From Chloroflexota bacterium (GTDB taxonomy: Bacteria > Chloroflexota > Anaerolineae > Aggregatilineales > Phototrophicaceae), in contig WTGJ01000024.1 of assembly GCA_011523615.1 (NCBI GenBank), positions 1 to 64,000 of the forward strand: 64,000 nt of DNA, in the 5' to 3' direction. Both the position numbers and the translations under genes were made by a program. Below are positions 24,977 to 36,795 of this stretch, in pieces. How positions within the stretch are numbered: position 1 is the stretch's first letter; every line of letters begins with the position of its first letter. The notes under the pieces were generated by a model that was not told where the DNA came from, did no database searches, and saw only the letters and a program-made list of their open reading frames with translations.

Positions 24977-25859
24977 ATGGATTTGACCGTCGCTTTTCAA
25001 GGAGTTCCGGGCTCGCATTCCGAACAGGCAGTGCGCCAGCATTTTGGCGACGAGGTCACACTGCTGGCACGGCCGAGATTCGCGGATCTGTTCGACGTTT
25101 TGGAAGAGTCGCTGGCACAACACGCCGTATTGCCAGTGGAGAATACCTATGCGGGCGGGGTCCTGAGCGCTTACGATCTACTGCTGGAAAACAACCTACA
25201 CATCCAGGGCGAGGTCATCCTGCGCGCTTACGATCTACTGCTGGAAAACAACCTACACATCCAGGGCGAGGTCATCCTGCGCGTGCATCATGCCTTGCTC
25301 GCGCGGCCGGGGGTAAAGCTGGACGATTTGCGTTATGTGCGCTCTCACCCCCAGGCGCTCGAGCAATGCGAGCAATTCCTGCGGCGGTATGGGCTGGAAG
25401 GTGTGCCACATTTCAATACGGCGGGCAGTGCGCGTGACCTGACGAGAGAAGCCTGGCAAGCGACGGGCGTCATCGCCAGCGCCCGCGCCGCCGAATTGTA
25501 CGGTCTCGAAGTGTTGGCGCCGAATATTGAAGACTCACCCCACAATTACACCCGTTTCTTCGTCGTCGGCGCCACGCAGCCGGTACAACAAGACCAGCAT
25601 CGTCTTCGCCACCCGCCACGAACCAGCAGCCCTCTATGATTGCCTCGGTGAACTGGCGACGCGTGGTATCAACTTCACCAAAGTAGAGAGCCGCCCACGC
25701 CGCAATCGCCCCTGGGAGCCCATCTTCTTCGTCGATTTCGAGGGGCACTGGAGCGACGACAATTGCCAACGGGCGCTGGTGGGTCTCCTGCAACGAGCCG
25801 CTTTCGTTAAGCTGCTCGGCTCATACCCAGGGGCGCGGGGTGAGCTCGTCGGACTTTGA
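24977..25859 (+). pseudogene. Decayed second copy of pheA
   Basis: The segment encodes a prephenate dehydratase similar to the one at 23128 (TVAFQGVPGSHSEQA, NYTRFFVVG, then ELATRGINFTKVESRPRR), but it has two lesions. A 57-bp in-frame tandem duplication (25169-25282) repeats 19 residues of the catalytic domain, and a frameshift near 25585, just after the catalytic TRF segment, moves the ACT domain into another frame. The two halves are open as 24977-25639 and 25527-25859. Many synonymous differences from pheA show that the duplication is old or that one copy came from elsewhere. Confidence 0.88.
25169..25282 (+). repeat. 57-bp perfect tandem duplication inside pheA copy 2
   Basis: 25169-25225 is repeated exactly at 25226-25282, adding 19 codons (AYDLLLENNLHIQGEVILR) in frame. 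The identity of the two units indicates a recent slippage or recombination event in a gene no longer under selection. Confidence 0.97.
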
Positions 25860-25899: not shown

Positions 25900-26275
25900 A
25901 CGATACCATGGAAGCAACGACGGTGAACCGGAAAGTACACGCCGGTCGCGTCAGTCAGAGAGGCGCCGCTGGAGCTGGGAGGGCGCTCTGGCGCGGGCGT
26001 GGAGTGGGCCGGGGAGTCGCTGCGGGGAACAGGGCCATGATGGTTAGCCTGGAGTATCCGCAGCCGGGAGGGCGCTTCCCAGCGTGGCTTCGAAAGCGCA
26101 ACGCCCCGTTACGGCGAAAAGTCTCCGACGGAGGGTGAGGCACACCTGACGCCGGGCGCTGCAGAGTGGGTGGTGAGGCGGCGAACCGCTTGCCGGCAGA
26201 CGCACTCCCACCAAACAGGGTGGCACCGCGGGAAAACCCCTTCTCGTCCCTGTCCGAAAGGATGGGGATGTTTTA
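25900..26275 (+). promoter_or_regulatory. Tryptophan T-box riboswitch leader of trpEG
   Basis: The T-box consensus AGGGTGGCACCGCG is at 26217-26230. Upstream, Stem I can be traced: CGAC (25918-25921) pairs with GTCG (26016-26019), GGTGA opposite GGA forms the kink-turn, CCGG (25928-25931) pairs with CCGG (26009-26012), and AAAGTAC faces GAGTGGG, placing the specifier codon TGG (Trp) at 26005-26007. The bulge TGGC complements GCCA, that is, a tRNA with discriminator G, as bacterial tRNA-Trp has. ACAGGG (26215-26220) can pair with CCCTGT (26248-26253) as antiterminator, which competes with the terminator at 26247. Uncharged tRNA-Trp should therefore switch trpEG on. Confidence 0.9.
26247..26274 (+). 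terminator. T-box-controlled terminator ahead of trpE
   Basis: TCCCTGTCC, a GAAA tetraloop and GGATGGGGA form a nine-pair stem (two G-U pairs), followed by TGTTTT. Its left arm is shared with the T-box antiterminator, so the two structures exclude each other. Confidence 0.82.
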
Positions 26276-28516: not shown

Positions 28517-29695
28517 ATGATTGGCGCGCGAATTCGTTTGGCACGGCAATTGGCCGGATTGACGCAAGAAGGGGTTGCAACCGCCTTAAGCCTGGTAAAT
28601 GTTTCTGCTACAAAACAGGCGATTTCCAATTATGAGAACGGGAAAAGGGAGCCGAGCGCGCGGGTGTTGCTGGCGTTGGCGGGGTTGCTTGGGGTGCGTA
28701 CGGATTATTTTTTTTACTCACCCAAAACGGAAATCAATTGGCTCGCATATCGAGGTCGCAGCACACTTGGAGAAAAAATTAAACATTCTATTCAAGGATA
28801 TGCGAAAGATGTAGCAGCACTATACATTGAACTTCGTACATTACTCTATCCCAATGATGCGGTTAATTTTCCGAAACGTCGCGCCGTTCTCGATGTGGAA
28901 GCTGCAGAAACAGCGGCTCAGGATTTACGGGCCACTTGGGGATTAAGCCCCAATCACCCAATCGAAAACTTAACTTTTACCGCTGAATCAAATGGTGTAA
29001 TTGTAATCGATTGGAACAAACCAACTCGGCTTTTCGATGGCTTATCAGGCCGGTTGAATGATACCGTGCCAATCACGGTTGTAAATACAGTTCGTCAGGT
29101 AGATCGCATCCGTTTTAATTTGGCGCACGAGCTAGGTCATTTGCTCATGAGCACTACTGAAGACCAATCCGAAAAATTAGCACATCGTTTTGCCGCTGCT
29201 TTACTTGTGCCCGCAGAAGTAGCTCGTTACGAACTGGGAAGAAAACGACAGCGAATATCACTCCAGGAACTGGGAACGCTCAAACGACGCTATGGACTGA
29301 GTATCCAGGGTTGGATCTACCGAGCCATGGACTTAGGTATAATTTCCAAGGCCTATGCGAACTCACTCTGGCCACAGGTCAATCAACTGGGCTGGAAAAG
29401 GAAAGAGCCCGATGAATACGCCTATGTTGCGGATGAAGAGCCGGTATTGCTTGAGCAAATGATACAACGATGTCTGAAAGAACAGTTGGTCACGGGAGAT
29501 CGGATTCGGCAGGTGTTTCCCCAATACGGGAAATATGATGAACCTATGGTTATTGCAGAAGGAAAATTCCCTAGTAGCAGAGAAATTCTTGCAATGCCTC
29601 TGGGGGAGCGTGAGCGGTGGATTGCAAAATCGATAGCCGAGATTGATCTCAAGAACTACGAAATGGTAGATACAGTTGACGAGGATATTCTATAA
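28517..29695 (+). CDS. XRE regulator with ImmA/IrrE metallopeptidase domain
   Basis: The 392-residue protein has an XRE helix-turn-helix (about 3-62: RIRLARQLAGLTQEGVATAL, then AISNYENGKREPS) and an ImmA/IrrE zinc peptidase domain with HELGH (204-208). ImmA peptidases cleave repressors, while many XRE-ImmA fusions act as antitoxins or stress regulators. The mazF-like gene begins right after the stop codon, so this is the presumed antitoxin or regulator. The islet is A+T-rich and sits between trpG and the aro operon. GGGGGTGA upstream of the ATG is a weak ribosome-binding site. Confidence 0.87.
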   Translation: MIGARIRLARQLAGLTQEGVATALSLVNVSATKQAISNYENGKREPSARVLLALAGLLGVRTDYFFYSPKTEINWLAYRGRSTLGEKIKHSIQGYAKDVAALYIELRTLLYPNDAVNFPKRRAVLDVEAAETAAQDLRATWGLSPNHPIENLTFTAESNGVIVIDWNKPTRLFDGLSGRLNDTVPITVVNTVRQVDRIRFNLAHELGHLLMSTTEDQSEKLAHRFAAALLVPAEVARYELGRKRQRISLQELGTLKRRYGLSIQGWIYRAMDLGIISKAYANSLWPQVNQLGWKRKEPDEYAYVADEEPVLLEQMIQRCLKEQLVTGDRIRQVFPQYGKYDEPMVIAEGKFPSSREILAMPLGERERWIAKSIAEIDLKNYEMVDTVDEDIL

Positions 29696-30073
29696 ATGCC
29701 TGAAGCCAGGCAACTGAATCCGAAGCGAGGTGAGATCTGGACAGTTCGATTTTACCCACAAGTTGGAGCTGAGATCACAAAGATCCGTCCTGCGGTGGTC
29801 ATGAGCATGGATAACATAAATGCGCTGGGGCTGAGGATCATTGTTCCATTCACGACAGGTCATGTTGGTTTTGAGGGTGATTTTCTAAAAGTGAAAATAT
29901 TCGCTGACGAAGAAAATAGGCTAACGCAAGATACTTGGGCAGATGTGTTCCAGATAAAAAGCCAATCCATTGAACGATTTGGGAAGAGAATCGGGTTGCT
30001 AAATCACGCACAGATGGAACAAATTGCGGACGCTGTGGCCATCTGTGTAGGCTTTTCACCTTCTACACGTTAG
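29696..30073 (+). CDS. MazF/PemK-family toxin
   Basis: The 125-residue protein shows the MazF/PemK pattern: NPKRGEIWTVRF, then IRPAVVMSMDNINALGLRIIVPFT, DTWADVFQIKSQS and RIGLLNHAQMEQIADAV. Such toxins are sequence-specific mRNA endonucleases. The ATG follows the stop of the XRE-ImmA gene directly. A MazF-like toxin paired with an XRE-ImmA protein rather than a small MazE antitoxin is an uncommon combination, and the pairing is inferred from the tight linkage. Confidence 0.85.
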   Translation: MPEARQLNPKRGEIWTVRFYPQVGAEITKIRPAVVMSMDNINALGLRIIVPFTTGHVGFEGDFLKVKIFADEENRLTQDTWADVFQIKSQSIERFGKRIGLLNHAQMEQIADAVAICVGFSPSTR

Positions 30074-30089
30074 GTATACTGATCTGCCA

Positions 30090-30133
30090 CTTTTCCATTT
30101 GACTTGACAAATGGGAAAAGGGTGCGCTAGTAT
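30090..30133 (+). promoter_or_regulatory. Promoter of the aro operon within an inverted repeat
   Basis: TTGACA (30104-30109), an 18-base spacer and TAGTAT (30128-30133) form a good promoter. The -35 lies inside an imperfect inverted repeat, CTTTTCCATTTG (30090-30101) against CAAATGGGAAAAG (30108-30120), which may end the mazF transcript or act as an operator. TTGACAAATG here (30104-30113) is also found at 28464-28473, ahead of the XRE-ImmA gene. The expected transcript start, about 30140, coincides with the ATG of the leader peptide. Confidence 0.65.
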
Positions 30134-30139
30134 CCAATT

Positions 30140-30226
30140 ATGAGCAGCCGTTGGTCGTACTACTATTTTAGCAGCGCCATAGGAGCGATGGGGCGGACCC
30201 GCGTCGCGCGCAGGATGCTGTGCTGA
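30140..30226 (+). CDS. Aromatic-residue leader peptide (attenuator)
   Basis: This 28-codon frame opens with MSSRWSYYYFSS: one Trp, three consecutive Tyr and one Phe within six codons, the hallmark of a ribosome-mediated attenuator that senses charged tRNAs. No purine-rich ribosome-binding site precedes the ATG, and the promoter at 30104-30133 puts the transcript start at or next to it, so translation is probably leaderless. A strong terminator follows 27 bases after the stop. GTAGCC (30231-30236) can pair back toward GGT-TAC in the aromatic codon region, or GCCA (30234-30237) with TGGC (30251-30254) as antiterminator. The pairings are drawn by eye. Confidence 0.75.
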   Translation: MSSRWSYYYFSSAIGAMGRTRVARRMLC

Positions 30227-30252
30227 CGGCGTAGCCAGAACGAAAGAGATTG

Positions 30253-30288
30253 GCGCAGGGAGTTCCCCAGACTCCTTGCGCTTTTTTT
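30253..30288 (+). terminator. Attenuator terminator ahead of aroH
   Basis: GCGCAGGGAGT (30253-30263) pairs with ACTCCTTGCGC (30271-30281), 11 pairs with one G-U, around a seven-base loop, followed by seven T. It is a strong intrinsic terminator placed inside the operon leader, between the leader peptide and aroH, as expected of an attenuator. Confidence 0.9.
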
Positions 30289-30409: not shown

Positions 30410-30799
30410 ATGAGGCCGGAGTTGCGGTTGCGCGGGGTGCGCGGGGCGGTGCAGATCGAGCGCGACGATGCGGCGGCGATCCTGATCGGTGCTGCGGAAT
30501 TGTTGCAGGATCTGGTGGCGGCCAATGGCATTCGGGAAGAGGACGTGGTGAGCGTGTTTTTCAGCACGACGGCGGACTTGACAGCTGCTTACCCGGCGCA
30601 GGCGGCACGGCAACTGGGCTGGCATCGGGTGGCTCTTTTTGGCGCGCAGGAACAGACCGTCGCCGGGGCCTTGCCGCGCGTGATTCGGGTGTTGATTCAC
30701 TGGCAGACGGCGCGGGCACTGGACGAAATCCAGCACGTGTATCTGGGAGAGGCGGCCCGATTGCGGCCGGACCGGGAGCAAAAGGAGGAAGAATCATGA
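30410..30799 (+). CDS. aroH: Chorismate mutase, AroH type
   Basis: The 129-residue protein matches the small trimeric AroH chorismate mutases: [15 protein letters not shown] at the front with the catalytic Arg, [24 protein letters not shown], and [11 protein letters not shown] near the end. It converts chorismate to prephenate for Phe and Tyr. I chose the ATG at 30410, with a GTG at 30401 as alternative; the longer open frame upstream is basic and unlike the family. Its stop overlaps the aroF start as ATGA. Confidence 0.93.
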
Positions 30800-31812
30800 T
30801 CGTGGTGATGCAGAAAGGGTGCAGCGCAGAGGCCATTTACAACCTGATGGAGCGCATCAAGGGAGATGGTTACGACGTGCACCTTTCCGAGGGGGAAGAG
30901 CGCACGATTGTCGGCGTGGTCGGGCACAGTCCAACGCCCCTGAAAGAGGAGAATTACAGCAGCATGCCGGAAGTGGAGAAAGTGCTGCGGGTGACGGCAC
31001 CGTACAAGCTGGCCAGTTACGATTTTCACCCGAACGACACGCTGGTGCCCCTGAACGGCACGCTGCTGGGCGGCGAGAAGGTGCTGGTGGTGGCCGGGCC
31101 CTGTTCGGTGGAGAGCCGCGAGCAGATCATCGAGACGGCGCATGCGGTGAAGGAAGCCGGGGCGACGGCGCTGCGCGGTGGCGCATTCAAGCCACGCACT
31201 TCCCCTTACAGCTTCCAGGGGCATGGCGAAGACGGCTTAAAATGGATGGCGGAGGCACGTGAGCAGACGGGCCTGCCGATCGTCACCGAAGTGATGTCTT
31301 CGGAGTTGGTGCCGCTGGTGGCGGAATACGCCGATGTCTTGCAAGTGGGCGCGCGCAATATGCAGAACTTCCATCTGCTGAACGCCTGTGGCGAGAGTCA
31401 GCAGACAGTGCTGTTGAAACGCGGGATGAGCAGCAAGTTGGAAGATCTGCTGATGGCGGCGGAATACGTCCTTTCTCATGGCAACAGCCGCGTGATCCTC
31501 TGCGAGCGGGGGATTCGCACCTTCGAGACGGCGACGCGCAACACCTTTGACCTGGGCGCGATCCCCGCGTTGCAACAGATGACGCACCTGCCGGTGGTCG
31601 CTGACCCCAGCCATGCCACGGGCAAATGGGAGTATGTCGAGCCGGTGGCGCGCGGGGCGGTGGCGGCCGGCGCCGACGGCCTGCTGTTGGAGGTGCACCT
31701 GCAACCGGACAAAGCGCTTTCCGATGGGCGGCAGAGCCTAACACCGAAGCGCTTCCGCCAGCTGATGGAGAACGTGCGACAGGTCGCGCAGGCGATCGGG
31801 CGTGATGCGTGA
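30796..31812 (+). CDS. aroF: 3-deoxy-7-phosphoheptulonate (DAHP) synthase
   Basis: The 338-residue type I-beta enzyme condenses phosphoenolpyruvate and erythrose 4-phosphate, the first step of the shikimate pathway. It has an N-terminal ferredoxin-like regulatory domain (1-70, as in Thermotoga enzymes, where it binds Tyr and Phe) and the barrel with [52 protein letters not shown] and DPSHATGK. It overlaps aroH and aroA by four bases each, so the operon is translationally coupled. Confidence 0.96.
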
Positions 31813-33161
31813 TGACTGGTGAGGGCGTGGCAATGGGCGAGAGCAAGGTGCTCCGCGTGCAGCCTACGGGCGAATCGTTGCAGGGCCGGGCGACGGTGCC
31901 GGGCGACAAATCGCTCTCGCACCGCGCGGTGCTGCTGGGGATGTTGGCCGAGGGGCAGACGAAAATCCGCGGCTGGCTGGCGGCGGGCGATACCGAAGCG
32001 ACGTTGAGCGCCTGCCGTGCGCTGGGCGTGTCGATCGAGCGGGATCGAGATAGGGATGAGATACGTCTGCAGGGCGGGGCCTTGCGGGAACCCACGGAGA
32101 GCCTGGATTTGCGCAACGCGGGCACCGGTTTTCGCCTCCTGGCGGGTATCCTGGCTGGACAGGATTTTGCCAGCACCCTGGACGGCAGTGCGCAGCTGCG
32201 GCGGCGGCCGATGGCGCGGATCATCCAGCCTTTGCACACGATGGGGGCCAACATCCATGCGCTGGGGGATGTGGCGCCGCTGAAGATTCGGCCGGCCCGC
32301 TTGCACGGCATTTTTTACCACCTGCCGGTGGCCAGCGCGCAGGTGAAATCGGCCGTATTGCTGGCGGGCCTCTTCGCCTATGGGGCGACAGCGGTGGAAG
32401 AGCCGCAGGCCACGCGCGATCATACCGAACGAATGCTGGCATCGATGGGCGCGGACCTGGTGCGTGGCCAGGGCATCGTGGTTTTGCAATCGGGGCAGGA
32501 GTTGCGGCCGCTGGATTTGCGCGTGCCGGGCGATTTTTCGTCGGCGGCGTTTCCCCTGGTCGCGGCGACCTTGCTGACGGGCAGCGACATCACGTTGACG
32601 GGCGTGAATTTGAACCCGACGCGCACCGGCCTGCTGGATGCGCTGGGGGAGATGGGCGCGGATCTGCAAGTGTCGATCACAGGCGAAGAAGCGGGCGAAC
32701 CGGTGGGGGAATTGCGGGTACGTTCGGCGACGCTGCAAGGCGCGGAGCTGGGTGGCGCTTTGATCCCGCGGATGATCGATGAGATTCCGTTGTTGATGGT
32801 CGCGGCGACGCAGGCGGTGGGCGAAACGCGGCTGCGGGAGGCGGCGGAATTGCGGGTTAAGGAGAGCGACCGGCTGGCGGTGATGGCGGCGGCATTGCAG
32901 CAGATGGGCGCGGTGTTGGAAGAACGAGAAGACGGCTTCGTGATGAGCGGGCCGCAAGGGCTGCGCGGCGCACAACTGAATTGCCATGATGACCACCGCA
33001 TCGCGATGAGTCTGGCGATCGCCGGCATGCTGGCGGAAGGTGATACGACCCTGCTGGGGGCGGAGTGCACGAATGACAGCTTCCCCGGCTTCGCATCGTT
33101 GATGAGCGGGCTGGGCGCCGGGATGCAGGAAGCGACTGGGCCGGAAAGCGAGGCGACATGA
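31809..33161 (+). CDS. aroA: 3-phosphoshikimate 1-carboxyvinyltransferase (EPSP synthase)
   Basis: The 450-residue enzyme joins shikimate 3-phosphate and phosphoenolpyruvate. Landmarks are [49 protein letters not shown], the catalytic Asp-Glu region [23 protein letters not shown] and [15 protein letters not shown]. The [10 protein letters not shown] segment is nearer the class II type than the E. coli NAGTAMRPL, which may mean lower glyphosate sensitivity. The start is GTG at 31809 or ATG at 31812; both overlap aroF. Confidence 0.96.
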
Positions 33162-34012
33162 CCGGCGGCGGGACGCAGCGAGTCGGGATCATCGGCTGGC
33201 CGCTGGGGCACACGCTGAGCCCGGCGATGCACCGGGCCGCGTTTCAGGCGCTGGGGATGACGGATTGGCGGTATGACGCGCTGCCGATTCCACCCGATCA
33301 GTTGGGCAGCCACCTGCGCCAATTGCGCGACGAAGGTGGGTATCGCGGCCTGAACGTGACGATCCCCCTGAAAGAGGTGGTGCTGCCTTTTGTGGAGGCG
33401 GACGAGACGGCGGCGGCGCTGGGTGCGGTGAATACGATCGATTTTCGGACGAAGGGCGGCCACAACACCGATGTCGGTGGTCTGCTGGCTGATCTGGCAG
33501 CGCACGAGCTGCATTTGCCACGGCGGCGGACCCTAGTTTTGGGCGCGGGCGGCGCGGCGCGGGCGGCGGTCTATGCGCTGGCGCAGGCGGGGGCGGTGCT
33601 GGCGATGCACAACCGAACAGTGGCGCGAGCGGAACGCTTGATTGCTGAATTGGGCGCGCAGGTGGAACTGCTGCAAGCGCAGGAACTGGCGACCTGGCGA
33701 CCGCAGCTGGTGGTGAATTGCACCTCGGTGGGGATGATGAAGGAGGGAGAGCCGCGGGCGACGGAGCAAAGCCCCTGGCCGGCGGGGGTGCCGATACCGA
33801 CGATGATGACCGTCTACGATATGGTCTACCGGCCGGCGCGGACGAAGTTGATGGCGCAAGTGGAGGCGCAGGGCGGGCGCGGAATCAGCGGGCTGGGGAT
33901 GCTGGTGCAACAGGGGGCGTTATCTTTTGCGATTTGGACGGGGCGGGAAGCGCCGGTGGAAGTGATGCGCGCGGCAGCAGAACGGGATCTTTATGGCGGA
34001 GGCGAGGCATGA
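33158..34012 (+). CDS. aroE: Shikimate dehydrogenase
   Basis: The 284-residue NADP-dependent enzyme reduces 3-dehydroshikimate. It has the substrate domain (GIIGWPLGHTLSPAMHRAAF, GLNVTIPLKE with the catalytic Lys, GAVNTI and GHNTDVGG with the catalytic Asp) and the nucleotide-binding LVLGAGGAARAAVYAL followed by NRT and VNCTSVGM. It starts within the end of aroA and overlaps aroC, both by four bases. Confidence 0.96.
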   Translation: MTGGGTQRVGIIGWPLGHTLSPAMHRAAFQALGMTDWRYDALPIPPDQLGSHLRQLRDEGGYRGLNVTIPLKEVVLPFVEADETAAALGAVNTIDFRTKGGHNTDVGGLLADLAAHELHLPRRRTLVLGAGGAARAAVYALAQAGAVLAMHNRTVARAERLIAELGAQVELLQAQELATWRPQLVVNCTSVGMMKEGEPRATEQSPWPAGVPIPTMMTVYDMVYRPARTKLMAQVEAQGGRGISGLGMLVQQGALSFAIWTGREAPVEVMRAAAERDLYGGGEA

Positions 34013-35202
34013 TTCGCTTGTTGACGGCGGGCGAGAGCCACGGGCCGCAGGTCACGGCCATTTTGGAAGGAATGCCGGCGGGCATTCCAGTACCGCCAGC
34101 GATCATCGATGAGCAGTTGGCGCGGCGGCAGAAGGGTTATGGTTCGGGCGGGCGGATGCGCATCGAGCGCGATCGAGTGCAGGTGACCGGCGGCGTGATG
34201 GCCGGGCAGAGCACCGGCGCGCCGATTTCGCTGGTCGTGACGAACCGTGATTTTGCCAATTGGCAGGACCGCGCGATCGAGCCGCTGACTGTGCCGCGGC
34301 CGGGGCACGCCGACTTGACGGCGGCGGTGAAATATGGTTACCGGGAGTTGCGCCTCGGCTTGGAGCGGGCGAGCGCGCGGGAGACGACGATGCGCGTAGC
34401 GGCAGGGGCGATTTGCCGCGCCTACCTGGCGGAATTTGGCATCCGCATCGTCGGTTACGTGCGGCAGCTGGGGGCGGTGCAGGCGGATTTGCCTGCGCTG
34501 CAGGATGAGGCCGTTTACGAGGCGCGCTTTGCGGCGGCGGAGGAGAGCGACGTGCGCTGCCCGGATGCGGCGGCGGCGGCGGCGATGCGCAAGGCGATCC
34601 GCCAAGTGAAGATCGACCGCGATACGCTGGGCGGCGTCTTCGAGGTCGTGGCGCTGGGCGTACCGCCGGGTCTGGGTTCGCACGTGCATTTCGACCGCCG
34701 TTTGGATGGGCGGATCGTGGCGGCGCTGGTGAGCATCCACGCGATGAAGGGGGCGGAGATCGGGCCGGCTTTTGAGAACGCGGGGCGGCGCGGCTCGAAG
34801 GCGCACGACGCGATCCTGCGCGATGAAGCGGGGAATTTGACGCGGCGCAGCAACCGCGCGGGTGGCATCGAAGGCGGGATCACCACCGGTCAGCCCATTG
34901 TGGCGCGGGTGGCGATGAAACCGATCTCCACTTTGCTGCAAGGAATCGATTCGGTGGATCTGGCGACGGGCGAAGCATCGCCGACGGTATATGAGCGAAG
35001 CGACTTTTGCGCTTTGCCGCGCGCGGTGCCGGTCGGTGAGGCGATGCTGGCCTTCGTGTTGGCGCAGGAGCTGGCGGCGAAGCTGGGCGGCGATAGCCTG
35101 GCGGAGCAAAAGCCGCGTTTTGCAGCCTTAAGGCAGGCGCATTTGGATGATTTGCCGATGGCGGCACGGCGCTGGCGCTTCGATGAGGAAGGTGGCCTAT
35201 GA
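34009..35202 (+). CDS. aroC: Chorismate synthase
   Basis: The 397-residue FMN-dependent enzyme makes chorismate from EPSP. It shows the start MIRLLTAGESHGPQVTAIL, RRQKGYGSGGRMRIERD, GRPGH-like PRPGHADLTAAVKYGYR, ERASARETTMRVAAGA, FDRRLDG, GSKAHD, NRAGGIEGG and RSDFCALPRAVPVGEAM. The start at 34009 overlaps aroE by four bases; the frame is open upstream, but that part is a shadow of aroE. Confidence 0.97.
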   Translation: MIRLLTAGESHGPQVTAILEGMPAGIPVPPAIIDEQLARRQKGYGSGGRMRIERDRVQVTGGVMAGQSTGAPISLVVTNRDFANWQDRAIEPLTVPRPGHADLTAAVKYGYRELRLGLERASARETTMRVAAGAICRAYLAEFGIRIVGYVRQLGAVQADLPALQDEAVYEARFAAAEESDVRCPDAAAAAAMRKAIRQVKIDRDTLGGVFEVVALGVPPGLGSHVHFDRRLDGRIVAALVSIHAMKGAEIGPAFENAGRRGSKAHDAILRDEAGNLTRRSNRAGGIEGGITTGQPIVARVAMKPISTLLQGIDSVDLATGEASPTVYERSDFCALPRAVPVGEAMLAFVLAQELAAKLGGDSLAEQKPRFAALRQAHLDDLPMAARRWRFDEEGGL

Positions 35203-35212
35203 GGGATTCTCC

Positions 35213-35740
35213 GTGAAGGTCAGACGCTCGCCGCCGGTTTCGCTGGTCCTGACCGGGTTCATGGGCGTGGGGAAGACGACAGTGGGCGGAATCCTGGCCA
35301 AGCGGGGCCACCTGCATTGGTTGGATACCGACCAACTATTGGAAGAGCGGCATGGCTGCGCGGTGACCACCCTGTTCGTGCAGGTGGGCGAAAGTGATTT
35401 TCGCGAATGTGAAGCGGAGATATGCCGTGAGCTGGCGGAACAGGAGGGTTTGCTGATCACGACCGGAGGCGGGACGTTGTTGCAACCAGAAACGGCAGCG
35501 CTCTTTGCCAGGCGGGCGTTGGTGATCTGCCTGACCGCGCGCGAGGATACGGTCGCCCGCCGCCTGCCGCCGGCAGACCCCAGTCGTCCGCTCTTCAGCC
35601 AGGATTGGCGGAAATTGCTGGCGGAGCGGCAGCCACGCTACCTTGCATTTCGCCATCAAGTGGTCACAGATGACCGCTGCGCGCAGCAGGTCGCGGATGA
35701 AATATGGGCTCTATGGCAACAGGCGCAACGACCCGGCTGA
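35213..35740 (+). CDS. aroK: Shikimate kinase
   Basis: The 175-residue kinase phosphorylates shikimate. It has the P-loop GFMGVGKTT, the shikimate-binding DTD in WLDTDQLLEE, FRECEAEICRELAEQ and TTGGG. I placed the start at GTG 35213 because GAGGG lies seven bases ahead; an ATG at 35183 inside aroC is possible. It overlaps aroB by up to 37 bases. The lid region is PLFSQDW rather than the common RPLL. Confidence 0.92.
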   Translation: MKVRRSPPVSLVLTGFMGVGKTTVGGILAKRGHLHWLDTDQLLEERHGCAVTTLFVQVGESDFRECEAEICRELAEQEGLLITTGGGTLLQPETAALFARRALVICLTAREDTVARRLPPADPSRPLFSQDWRKLLAERQPRYLAFRHQVVTDDRCAQQVADEIWALWQQAQRPG

Positions 35741-36795
35741 CCGTACGCTCGCCGCAGGGCAGCTACCCCATCCATGTGGGGGCGGGGCTGCGCTGGCGCC
35801 TGGCGGAAATGGGCGCTCCACACGGCTTGCGCGGGCGGGTGGTGGTCGTCAGCAGCGAGGGGGCGGCCGCGGAGCACGCACAAGCGGTCATGGAAACGCT
35901 GCCGCAGGCCACGCTCCTGACCATCGCCGATGGCGAAGGAGCGAAGAACCTAGCCACTGTGGAGCGCCTGTATTCGCAGCTGATCGAGGCCGGCATCCAG
36001 CGAGACAGCACGATGTTGGCGCTGGGCGGCGGCGTGTTGGGCGATACAGCGGGCTTCGCGGCGGCGAGTTTTTTGCGCGGCATCCGTTGTGTGCAGATGC
36101 CGAGCACCTTATTGGCGATGGTGGATTCCAGCGTCGGCGGCAAAGTGGGCATCAATCTGCGCGAGGGCAAGAACCTGGTCGGCGCCTTCCTGCAACCGGC
36201 AGCGGTGATTTTGGATCCAGAGCTGTTGGAAACGTTGCCGGCGATCGAATGGCGCTGCGGCATGGCAGAGGTGATCAAGCACGGCTTGCTGGCAGATGAG
36301 GAGTTGCTCGCGCCGCGTTGGCTGAAAGATGGGCGGCCGGCCGCGAGTGATCTGCCGGAGCTGTTGCGGCGGGCCTTGCGCGTGAAGATCGATGTGGTGG
36401 AAGCGGACCCCTTCGAGCAGGGGCAACGGGCGCATTTGAACCTGGGGCACACCTTCGCGCACGCGATCGAGCGCGTGGCCGATTATCGCTGGAAGCATGG
36501 CGAGGCGGTGGCGGTCGGCTTGTTGGCGGCGGCGCAGCTCTCGGAGCGGCTGGGGATGTGCGCGGCCGGGCTGGCGGCGCGGGTCGAGCAGGTGCTGGAA
36601 CGGGCCGGCTTGCCGCGGCGCCTGGAAGCGGGGATGCAGGCGGGCGCGCTGTACGCGGCGATGGCGCGGGATAAGAAGTGGGTCAGCGGGCGCTCGCGCT
36701 TCGTGCTGTTGCGCGGGATCGGGCAACCGGAAGTCGTTTGGGACGTGCCGGCAGATGAGGTGGTGGCGGTGTTGCGGGCGCTGGGGGCCAGCTGA
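35704..36795 (+). CDS. aroB: 3-dehydroquinate synthase
   Basis: The 363-residue NAD+- and metal-dependent enzyme cyclises DAHP to 3-dehydroquinate. It has ALGGGVLGDTAGFAAASFLRG, PSTLLAMVDSSVGGKVGIN, GAFLQPAAVILDPELLETLP, the Glu of AEVIKHG and metal ligands in NLGHTFAHAIE and WKHGEAVAVGL. The first ATG is 35704, with a second at 35713. It is the last gene of the aro operon. aroD (3-dehydroquinate dehydratase) is missing from the cluster and must be elsewhere. Confidence 0.96.
   Translation: MGSMATGATTRLTVRSPQGSYPIHVGAGLRWRLAEMGAPHGLRGRVVVVSSEGAAAEHAQAVMETLPQATLLTIADGEGAKNLATVERLYSQLIEAGIQRDSTMLALGGGVLGDTAGFAAASFLRGIRCVQMPSTLLAMVDSSVGGKVGINLREGKNLVGAFLQPAAVILDPELLETLPAIEWRCGMAEVIKHGLLADEELLAPRWLKDGRPAASDLPELLRRALRVKIDVVEADPFEQGQRAHLNLGHTFAHAIERVADYRWKHGEAVAVGLLAAAQLSERLGMCAAGLAARVEQVLERAGLPRRLEAGMQAGALYAAMARDKKWVSGRSRFVLLRGIGQPEVVWDVPADEVVAVLRALGAS

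Follow-up and report, generated by a model that had tools for sequence, protein, structure and literature searches.

A probable ribosome-mediated attenuator with an aromatic, apparently leaderless leader peptide upstream of an aro operon in Chloroflexota

In E. coli trpL and pheL, the choice between a terminator and an antiterminator depends on whether the ribosome stalls at codons for the end product (PMC11802643). A leader peptide with a Phe-Tyr-Phe run (aroR) is located 5' of the DAHP synthase gene aroF in C. glutamicum and acts by ribosome-mediated attenuation (PMC4046766; PMC11802643); according to PMC11802643, which cites Neshat et al. 2014, limitation for Phe leads to ribosome stalling at aroR and thereby to increased transcription. 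For the C. glutamicum ilvBNC leader, PMC4046766 states with reference to Morbach et al. 2000 that synthesis takes place in the absence of a ribosome-binding site. In S. meliloti, the ATG of the leader ORF forms the 5' end of the rnTrpL/trpL transcript, and a stall-dependent antiterminator competes with a terminator (PMC7298713), while in Streptomyces lividans trpL1, leuL and ilvL represent leaderless leader ORFs followed by a hairpin and a U-rich terminator before amino acid genes (PMC8079986). Leaderless genes have been predicted previously in Chloroflexi, i.e., in 4 of 12 genomes and for about 5% of genes (PMC3160421). None of the papers covered by our search describes an aromatic leader attenuator from Chloroflexota, which is not proof that such attenuators are absent.

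We analyzed a 64,000-nt stretch of Chloroflexota DNA (referred to here as the window), which lies on contig 27 of a 2.64-Mb genome and for which a previous sequence-only reading had proposed that an aromatic leader peptide attenuates a whole aro operon. Comparison with relatives strongly supports this proposal, and we consider it very likely that the element is a ribosome-mediated transcription attenuator of aroHFAECKB, probably carried on a leaderless mRNA and responsive to the charging of aromatic tRNAs; that the leader represents an attenuator is the part of this interpretation in which our confidence is highest.

Organization of the leader region and its surroundings

The promoter described in the sequence-only reading was found, with the -35 box at 30104-30109 and the -10 box at 30128-30133 separated by an 18-nt spacer. 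A promoter scan of the region yielded 2 sites as compared to 0.4 expected, and relatives carry TTGACR-N17-TATNNT at the equivalent relative place; the imperfect -10 box and the 18-nt spacer of the window were counted against our preferred explanation. The leader peptide begins MSSRWSYYYFSS, with its ATG at 30140 and its stop codon at 30224-30226, and no alternative in-frame start is present upstream of this ATG. While the ATG is indeed close to the -10 box, as previously noted, the gap between them is 6 nt (CCAATT) rather than seven; the reported lack of a ribosome-binding site agrees with our finding that no Shine-Dalgarno sequence is located at the right distance. The 28-codon frame was also confirmed, with Trp at position 5, Tyr at positions 7-9 and Phe at position 10. 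The terminator follows the stop codon after 25 nt and has a CCCCA loop and seven T after the hairpin; the 11 base pairs reported earlier form the GC-rich core of a hairpin with 13-nt arms (30252-30282). As a terminator scan of the region found 1 terminator with 0.8 expected, the hairpin by itself is not above chance. No Rfam element, including the T-box (RF00230), was detected at 30104-30288 with either gathering or relaxed thresholds.

The gene order aroH-F-A-E-C-K-B was confirmed with NCBIfam and Pfam (Table 1), with ATG 30410 as the most likely start of aroH. Metagenome assemblies of Anaerolineae and other Chloroflexota encode the closest relatives of the DAHP synthase, and the aroF gene of the window has a strong Shine-Dalgarno sequence (AAGGAGGAAGAATCATG), indicating that the organism does use such sequences. 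Type II dehydroquinase, the sole step of the shikimate pathway absent from the operon, is encoded on another contig (G000:C19:77048-77458).

Genes for an HTH and IrrE-like (Peptidase_M78) protein and a PemK/MazF-type protein, probably a toxin-antitoxin pair, occupy 28517-30073 between trpEG and the aro operon; the MazF-type gene ends at 30073, upstream of the aro leader promoter. A T-box (RF00230; 59.2 bits, E = 1.7e-11, below the Rfam gathering score) is located at 25914-26254, directly 5' of trpE-trpG, where no convincing Trp leader was found in relatives. The adjoining aromatic operons thus appear to use two unlike sensors of tRNA charging, i.e., a T-box for trpE and a leader peptide for aro. 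The prephenate dehydratase gene at 24977-25859 carries a frameshift, either natural or from assembly: its ORF ends at 25639 and the ACT-like C-terminal part runs on in another frame to 25859.

Table 1. Coordinates of features of the aro leader and operon in the window
Feature	Position	Strand	Basis or detail
Sigma-70-type promoter TTGACA-N18-TAGTAT	30104..30133	+	Sequence, promoter scan, relatives
Leader peptide ORF MSSRWSYYYFSSAIGAMGRTRVARRMLC, 28 codons, leaderless type	30140..30226	+	Position and aromatic content conserved in relatives
Regulatory codons Trp-Ser-Tyr-Tyr-Tyr-Phe (codons 5-10)	30152..30169	+	Sequence
Alternative antiterminator strand (predicted)	30173..30193	+	Complementary to terminator loop and 3' arm 30265-30282; -23.8 kcal/mol, z -2.6, P = 0.02
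GCGCCA, predicted antiterminator strand	30174..30179	+	Fold without terminator 3' arm; pairs with TGGCGC 30251-30256
CATAG element, 5-9 nt past last aromatic codon in own-family leader type	30178..30182	+	Conserved
TGGCGC, partner of GCGCCA, overlaps base of terminator 5' arm	30251..30256	+	Same predicted fold
Intrinsic terminator, arms 30252-30264 and 30270-30282, T run to 30288	30252..30288	+	-21.4 kcal/mol
aroH, monofunctional chorismate mutase, first structural gene	30410..30799	+	CM_1, TIGR01796
aroF, DAHP synthase, TIGR01361 type	30796..31812	+	NCBIfam/Pfam
aroA, EPSP synthase	31809..33161	+	NCBIfam/Pfam
aroE, shikimate dehydrogenase	33158..34012	+	NCBIfam/Pfam
aroC, chorismate synthase, start approximate	34015..35202	+	Family match from residue 100 of ORF 33718-35202
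aroK, shikimate kinase	35147..35740	+	NCBIfam/Pfam
aroB, 3-dehydroquinate synthase	35704..36795	+	NCBIfam/Pfam

Recurrence and start mode of aromatic leaders

As a single aromatic-rich short ORF could be luck, we examined 160 non-identical sequences located 5' of aroF homologues, most of them from Chloroflexota. In 51 of these regions, a short ORF with aromatic residues at 6 or more of 8 codons was present, as compared to 0-3 in ten dinucleotide-shuffled sets and 1 on the reverse strand, where the leader counts come from related sequences and hence are not independent. At the level of the window leader itself (5 of 8 aromatic), 62 of the 160 regions qualified as compared to 3-9 in the shuffles. 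The conservation of the small frame in relatives, which the sequence-only reading had put forward as a check, was thus observed. When the same 24 nt of each leader were read by frame, 373 aromatic residues contrasted with 94 and 100. An aromatic ORF followed by a terminator was found in 59 of the 160 regions; in these, the aromatic run and the stop codon are 10-21 codons apart, and the terminator follows the stop codon after 19-48 nt. Of 86 aroF loci sampled at the class level, which include second copies, 33 showed both leader and terminator. Judged from these sequence comparisons, the presence of aromatic leader ORFs before aro genes is not due to chance. Four ORFs that were AT-rich or lacked the arrangement (L046, L060, L072 and L075) were left out of the leaders, as was L059, which most likely represents the ACT-domain end of pheA. 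Outside Chloroflexota, a Planctomycetales MAG (L078) carries, approx. 165-195 nt 5' of aroF, a leaderless-type leader with the run FYWFYF and a terminator, with a -10 box (CATAAT) 7 nt before the ATG.

All 59 leaders contain Phe and 58 contain Tyr, while Trp is present in 17; most relatives' leaders hold only Phe and Tyr. Their codon content indicates that sensing of Phe and Tyr is general across leaders.

Among leaders with a callable promoter, the spacing between the -10 box and the start codon was bimodal. The first mode comprised 28 leaders with spacings of 6-13 nt (most commonly 9), all without a Shine-Dalgarno sequence, and the second comprised 23 leaders with spacings of 16-87 nt (mostly 23-45) and with a Shine-Dalgarno sequence. 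ATG was used by 28/28 leaders in the first mode as compared to 16/23 in the second (P = 0.002; Fisher's exact test), where start codons were chosen with a fixed rule and a small number of these assignments may be in error. Moreover, mean anti-Shine-Dalgarno energies were approx. +0.1 and -3.9 kcal/mol, respectively (P = 4e-6; Mann-Whitney test). The window leader, with ATG, no Shine-Dalgarno sequence and a spacing of 6 nt that lies within the approx. 6-9 nt expected for a leaderless mRNA, belongs to the leaderless type. Its sampled family members, on the other hand, are leadered, with 5' UTRs extending approx. 16-43 nt after the -10 box; start mode thus appears, from these sequences, to have switched within the family. 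The bimodal spacing, the lack of a Shine-Dalgarno sequence and the exclusive use of ATG provide good support for the leaderless translation proposed in the sequence-only reading, and we regard it as probable that the window leader is translated from a leaderless mRNA.

A leadered transcript carrying the same attenuator would make this leaderlessness only apparent. Such a transcript could start from a second promoter-like site upstream (TTTTCA 30053 / TATACT 30075-30080), giving a 5' UTR of approx. 50 nt, and would be in line with the 5' UTRs of the sampled same-family relatives. However, this site scores 9/12 as compared to 10/12 for TTGACA-N18-TAGTAT, no properly spaced Shine-Dalgarno sequence is present (the end of the sole purine run, GGGAAAAGGG, is located in the promoter spacer, approx. 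17 nt 5' of the ATG), and a spacing of 6 nt places the window leader in the leaderless mode, which comprises 28 leaders. We therefore consider a leadered origin unlikely.

Predicted antiterminator pairing and the proposed switch

Folds were computed without the 3' arm of the terminator, representing the moment before this arm is transcribed. In 16 of 16 sampled leaders of the leaderless group, a strand located 10-16 nt past the aromatic run was predicted to pair with the upstream flank and the 5' arm of the terminator, typically as AGCCGC-CUUGUU with AACAAG-GCGGCU, and the stop codon was often near the apex of the resulting long hairpin. The sequestered fraction of the 5' arm in this group averaged 0.64 as compared to 0.28 in shuffled sequences (P ≤ 0.1 for 18 of 27 leaders), and native partners outperformed swapped partners (P = 0.0003); the partner-swap test on the terminator 3' arm in the same group showed no such signal. 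In the alignment of the leaderless group, 89.5% of cells were paired as compared to 32-59% when the alignment was slid. Covariation, which had been proposed as another check, was limited in this alignment, as changes on both sides were few (2 pairs, with 149 of 500 shuffles as high). With MAFFT alignments as input, RNAalifold recovered no more than the terminator or a single 5-bp helix, owing to excessive variation in loops and spacings; folding of individual sequences, shuffling and partner swapping were more informative. Locus by locus, the duplex energies calculated for the downstream strand and the terminator arms gave a mixed picture. Overall, the folding models identify the pairing in the leaderless group as a classical antiterminator, which would be left free by a ribosome stalled on the aromatic codons and broken by a ribosome at the stop codon.

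In the window, the GCCA/TGGC pairing suggested by the sequence-only reading lies within the predicted 6-bp helix GCGCCA/TGGCGC, but for this leader alone sequestering of the 5' arm was not above chance (0.37 as compared to 0.29 in shuffles; P = 0.39); the other pairing suggested, between GTAGCC and the aromatic codon region, does not appear when the leader is folded. The alternative antiterminator strand listed in Table 1 represents a kind of pairing, with the terminator loop and 3' arm, that is common to the family group (P = 0.017 in the swap test; P = 0.07 without the window), and its topology would form late. The window's own antiterminator pairing, as modelled, is thus less certain than that of the leaderless group.

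With a 12-nt downstream footprint, ribosomes at Trp5 to Tyr8 are predicted to permit GCGCCA/UGGCGC, while most of the GCGCCA strand would be hidden beneath a ribosome that stalls at Tyr9 or Phe10; with a 15-nt footprint, coverage begins one codon earlier. As only the earlier stalls would expose this strand, the model accounts more readily for a response of this leader to Trp and Tyr than for one to Phe. With the ribosome at the stop codon, the terminator 5' arm is predicted to be free. In the equilibrium predictions, the terminator prevails whatever the ribosome position (P = 0.87-0.97), which means that a switch could only operate kinetically. The claim that the leader reads three aromatic amino acids at once is only plausible, given the predicted covering of GCGCCA by the later stalls and the presence of Trp in a minority of leaders, and we lean slightly against all three of Trp, Tyr and Phe being effective in this species.

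We propose that transcription would start at the ATG or no more than a few bases away from it and that the ribosome would start on the 5' end of the mRNA without a Shine-Dalgarno sequence. When charged Trp, Tyr or Phe tRNA is scarce, the ribosome would pause on the W-S-Y-Y-Y-F codons, leaving the downstream RNA free to pair, so that the terminator would be blocked and the operon read; for this step, leaderless relatives offer a conserved pairing. When the tRNAs are charged, the ribosome would reach the stop codon at 30224 and disrupt the antiterminator, and the terminator would form and stop transcription.

If the small ORF were accidental, the hairpin might instead end the upstream mazF-type operon, with the aro operon starting from a promoter further down. 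Chance-level expectation for the terminator alone and for the window's own antiterminator would fit this explanation, but the strongest promoter of the region sits between mazF and the hairpin, and an aromatic ORF with a terminator recurs 5' of aroH-aroF across the phylum, making an accident very improbable. An interaction between the exit tunnel and aromatic-rich nascent chains is possible in principle, and in a TnaC-type arrest such a peptide together with free amino acid would stall the ribosome. However, the aromatic run differs freely in F/Y/W order, length and gaps, no residue outside the run is conserved across groups, and synonymous codons are mixed within the runs (TTT 154, TTC 33, TAT 92, TAC 76), as expected for sensing by a codon run; we assign nascent-peptide arrest a similarly small probability. 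The CATAG element, which is also found in L010, L083, L084, L085, L088, L090, L091, L096, L104, L110, L116 and L143, occurs in more than one reading frame and is thus kept as RNA or DNA rather than as peptide. If an RNA-binding protein, T-box or riboswitch were responsible for attenuation, the ORF would be incidental. Such an explanation could draw on this conserved element and on the trpE T-box, which indicates that the genome uses other RNA switches, but it is the least probable one, as no Rfam match was found at the leader and the dense aromatic reading frame would be left unexplained.

Comparison with described attenuators

Leaderless attenuators, as well as a Phe-Tyr-Phe leader before aroF, are already known (Corynebacterium, Streptomyces, Sinorhizobium); what is noteworthy here is the mixture of start modes among leaders. 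We tentatively describe a Chloroflexota aromatic attenuator in which the start of the ORF switches between leaderless and Shine-Dalgarno modes among related lineages and which in some of these, possibly including the window, may serve as a three-input Trp/Tyr/Phe sensor, although we place this full description slightly below an even chance. These leaders point to a possible mode of control of the shikimate pathway in a large phylum with mostly uncultured members. Moreover, approx. 50 related leader ORFs of either start mode provide a natural series for the effect of start mode on attenuation and on the coupling of transcription and translation.

The E. coli trpL and pheL leader ORFs have a ribosome-binding site; their codon-stall decision is the one proposed for the window leader, but they respond to one amino acid each. 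The window leader does differ from these classic attenuators, as the sequence-only reading had stated, but it is not unprecedented when S. meliloti, Streptomyces and C. glutamicum are considered. Sinorhizobium meliloti trpL has a leaderless leader ORF, as the window probably does, but contains regulatory codons for Trp only and controls trpE(G). The S. lividans leaders show the same leaderless layout for other amino acids, with no aro leader among the eight found. The leader transcript of C. glutamicum aroR is leaderless, as that of the window probably is. Compared by arrangement, as given in the published papers, aroR resembles the window in that an aromatic leader peptide precedes a DAHP synthase operon. 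The Chloroflexota leaders, on the other hand, belong to another phylum and have longer aromatic runs, some with Trp, and the leader in the window precedes a seven-gene aro operon with aroH as its first gene.
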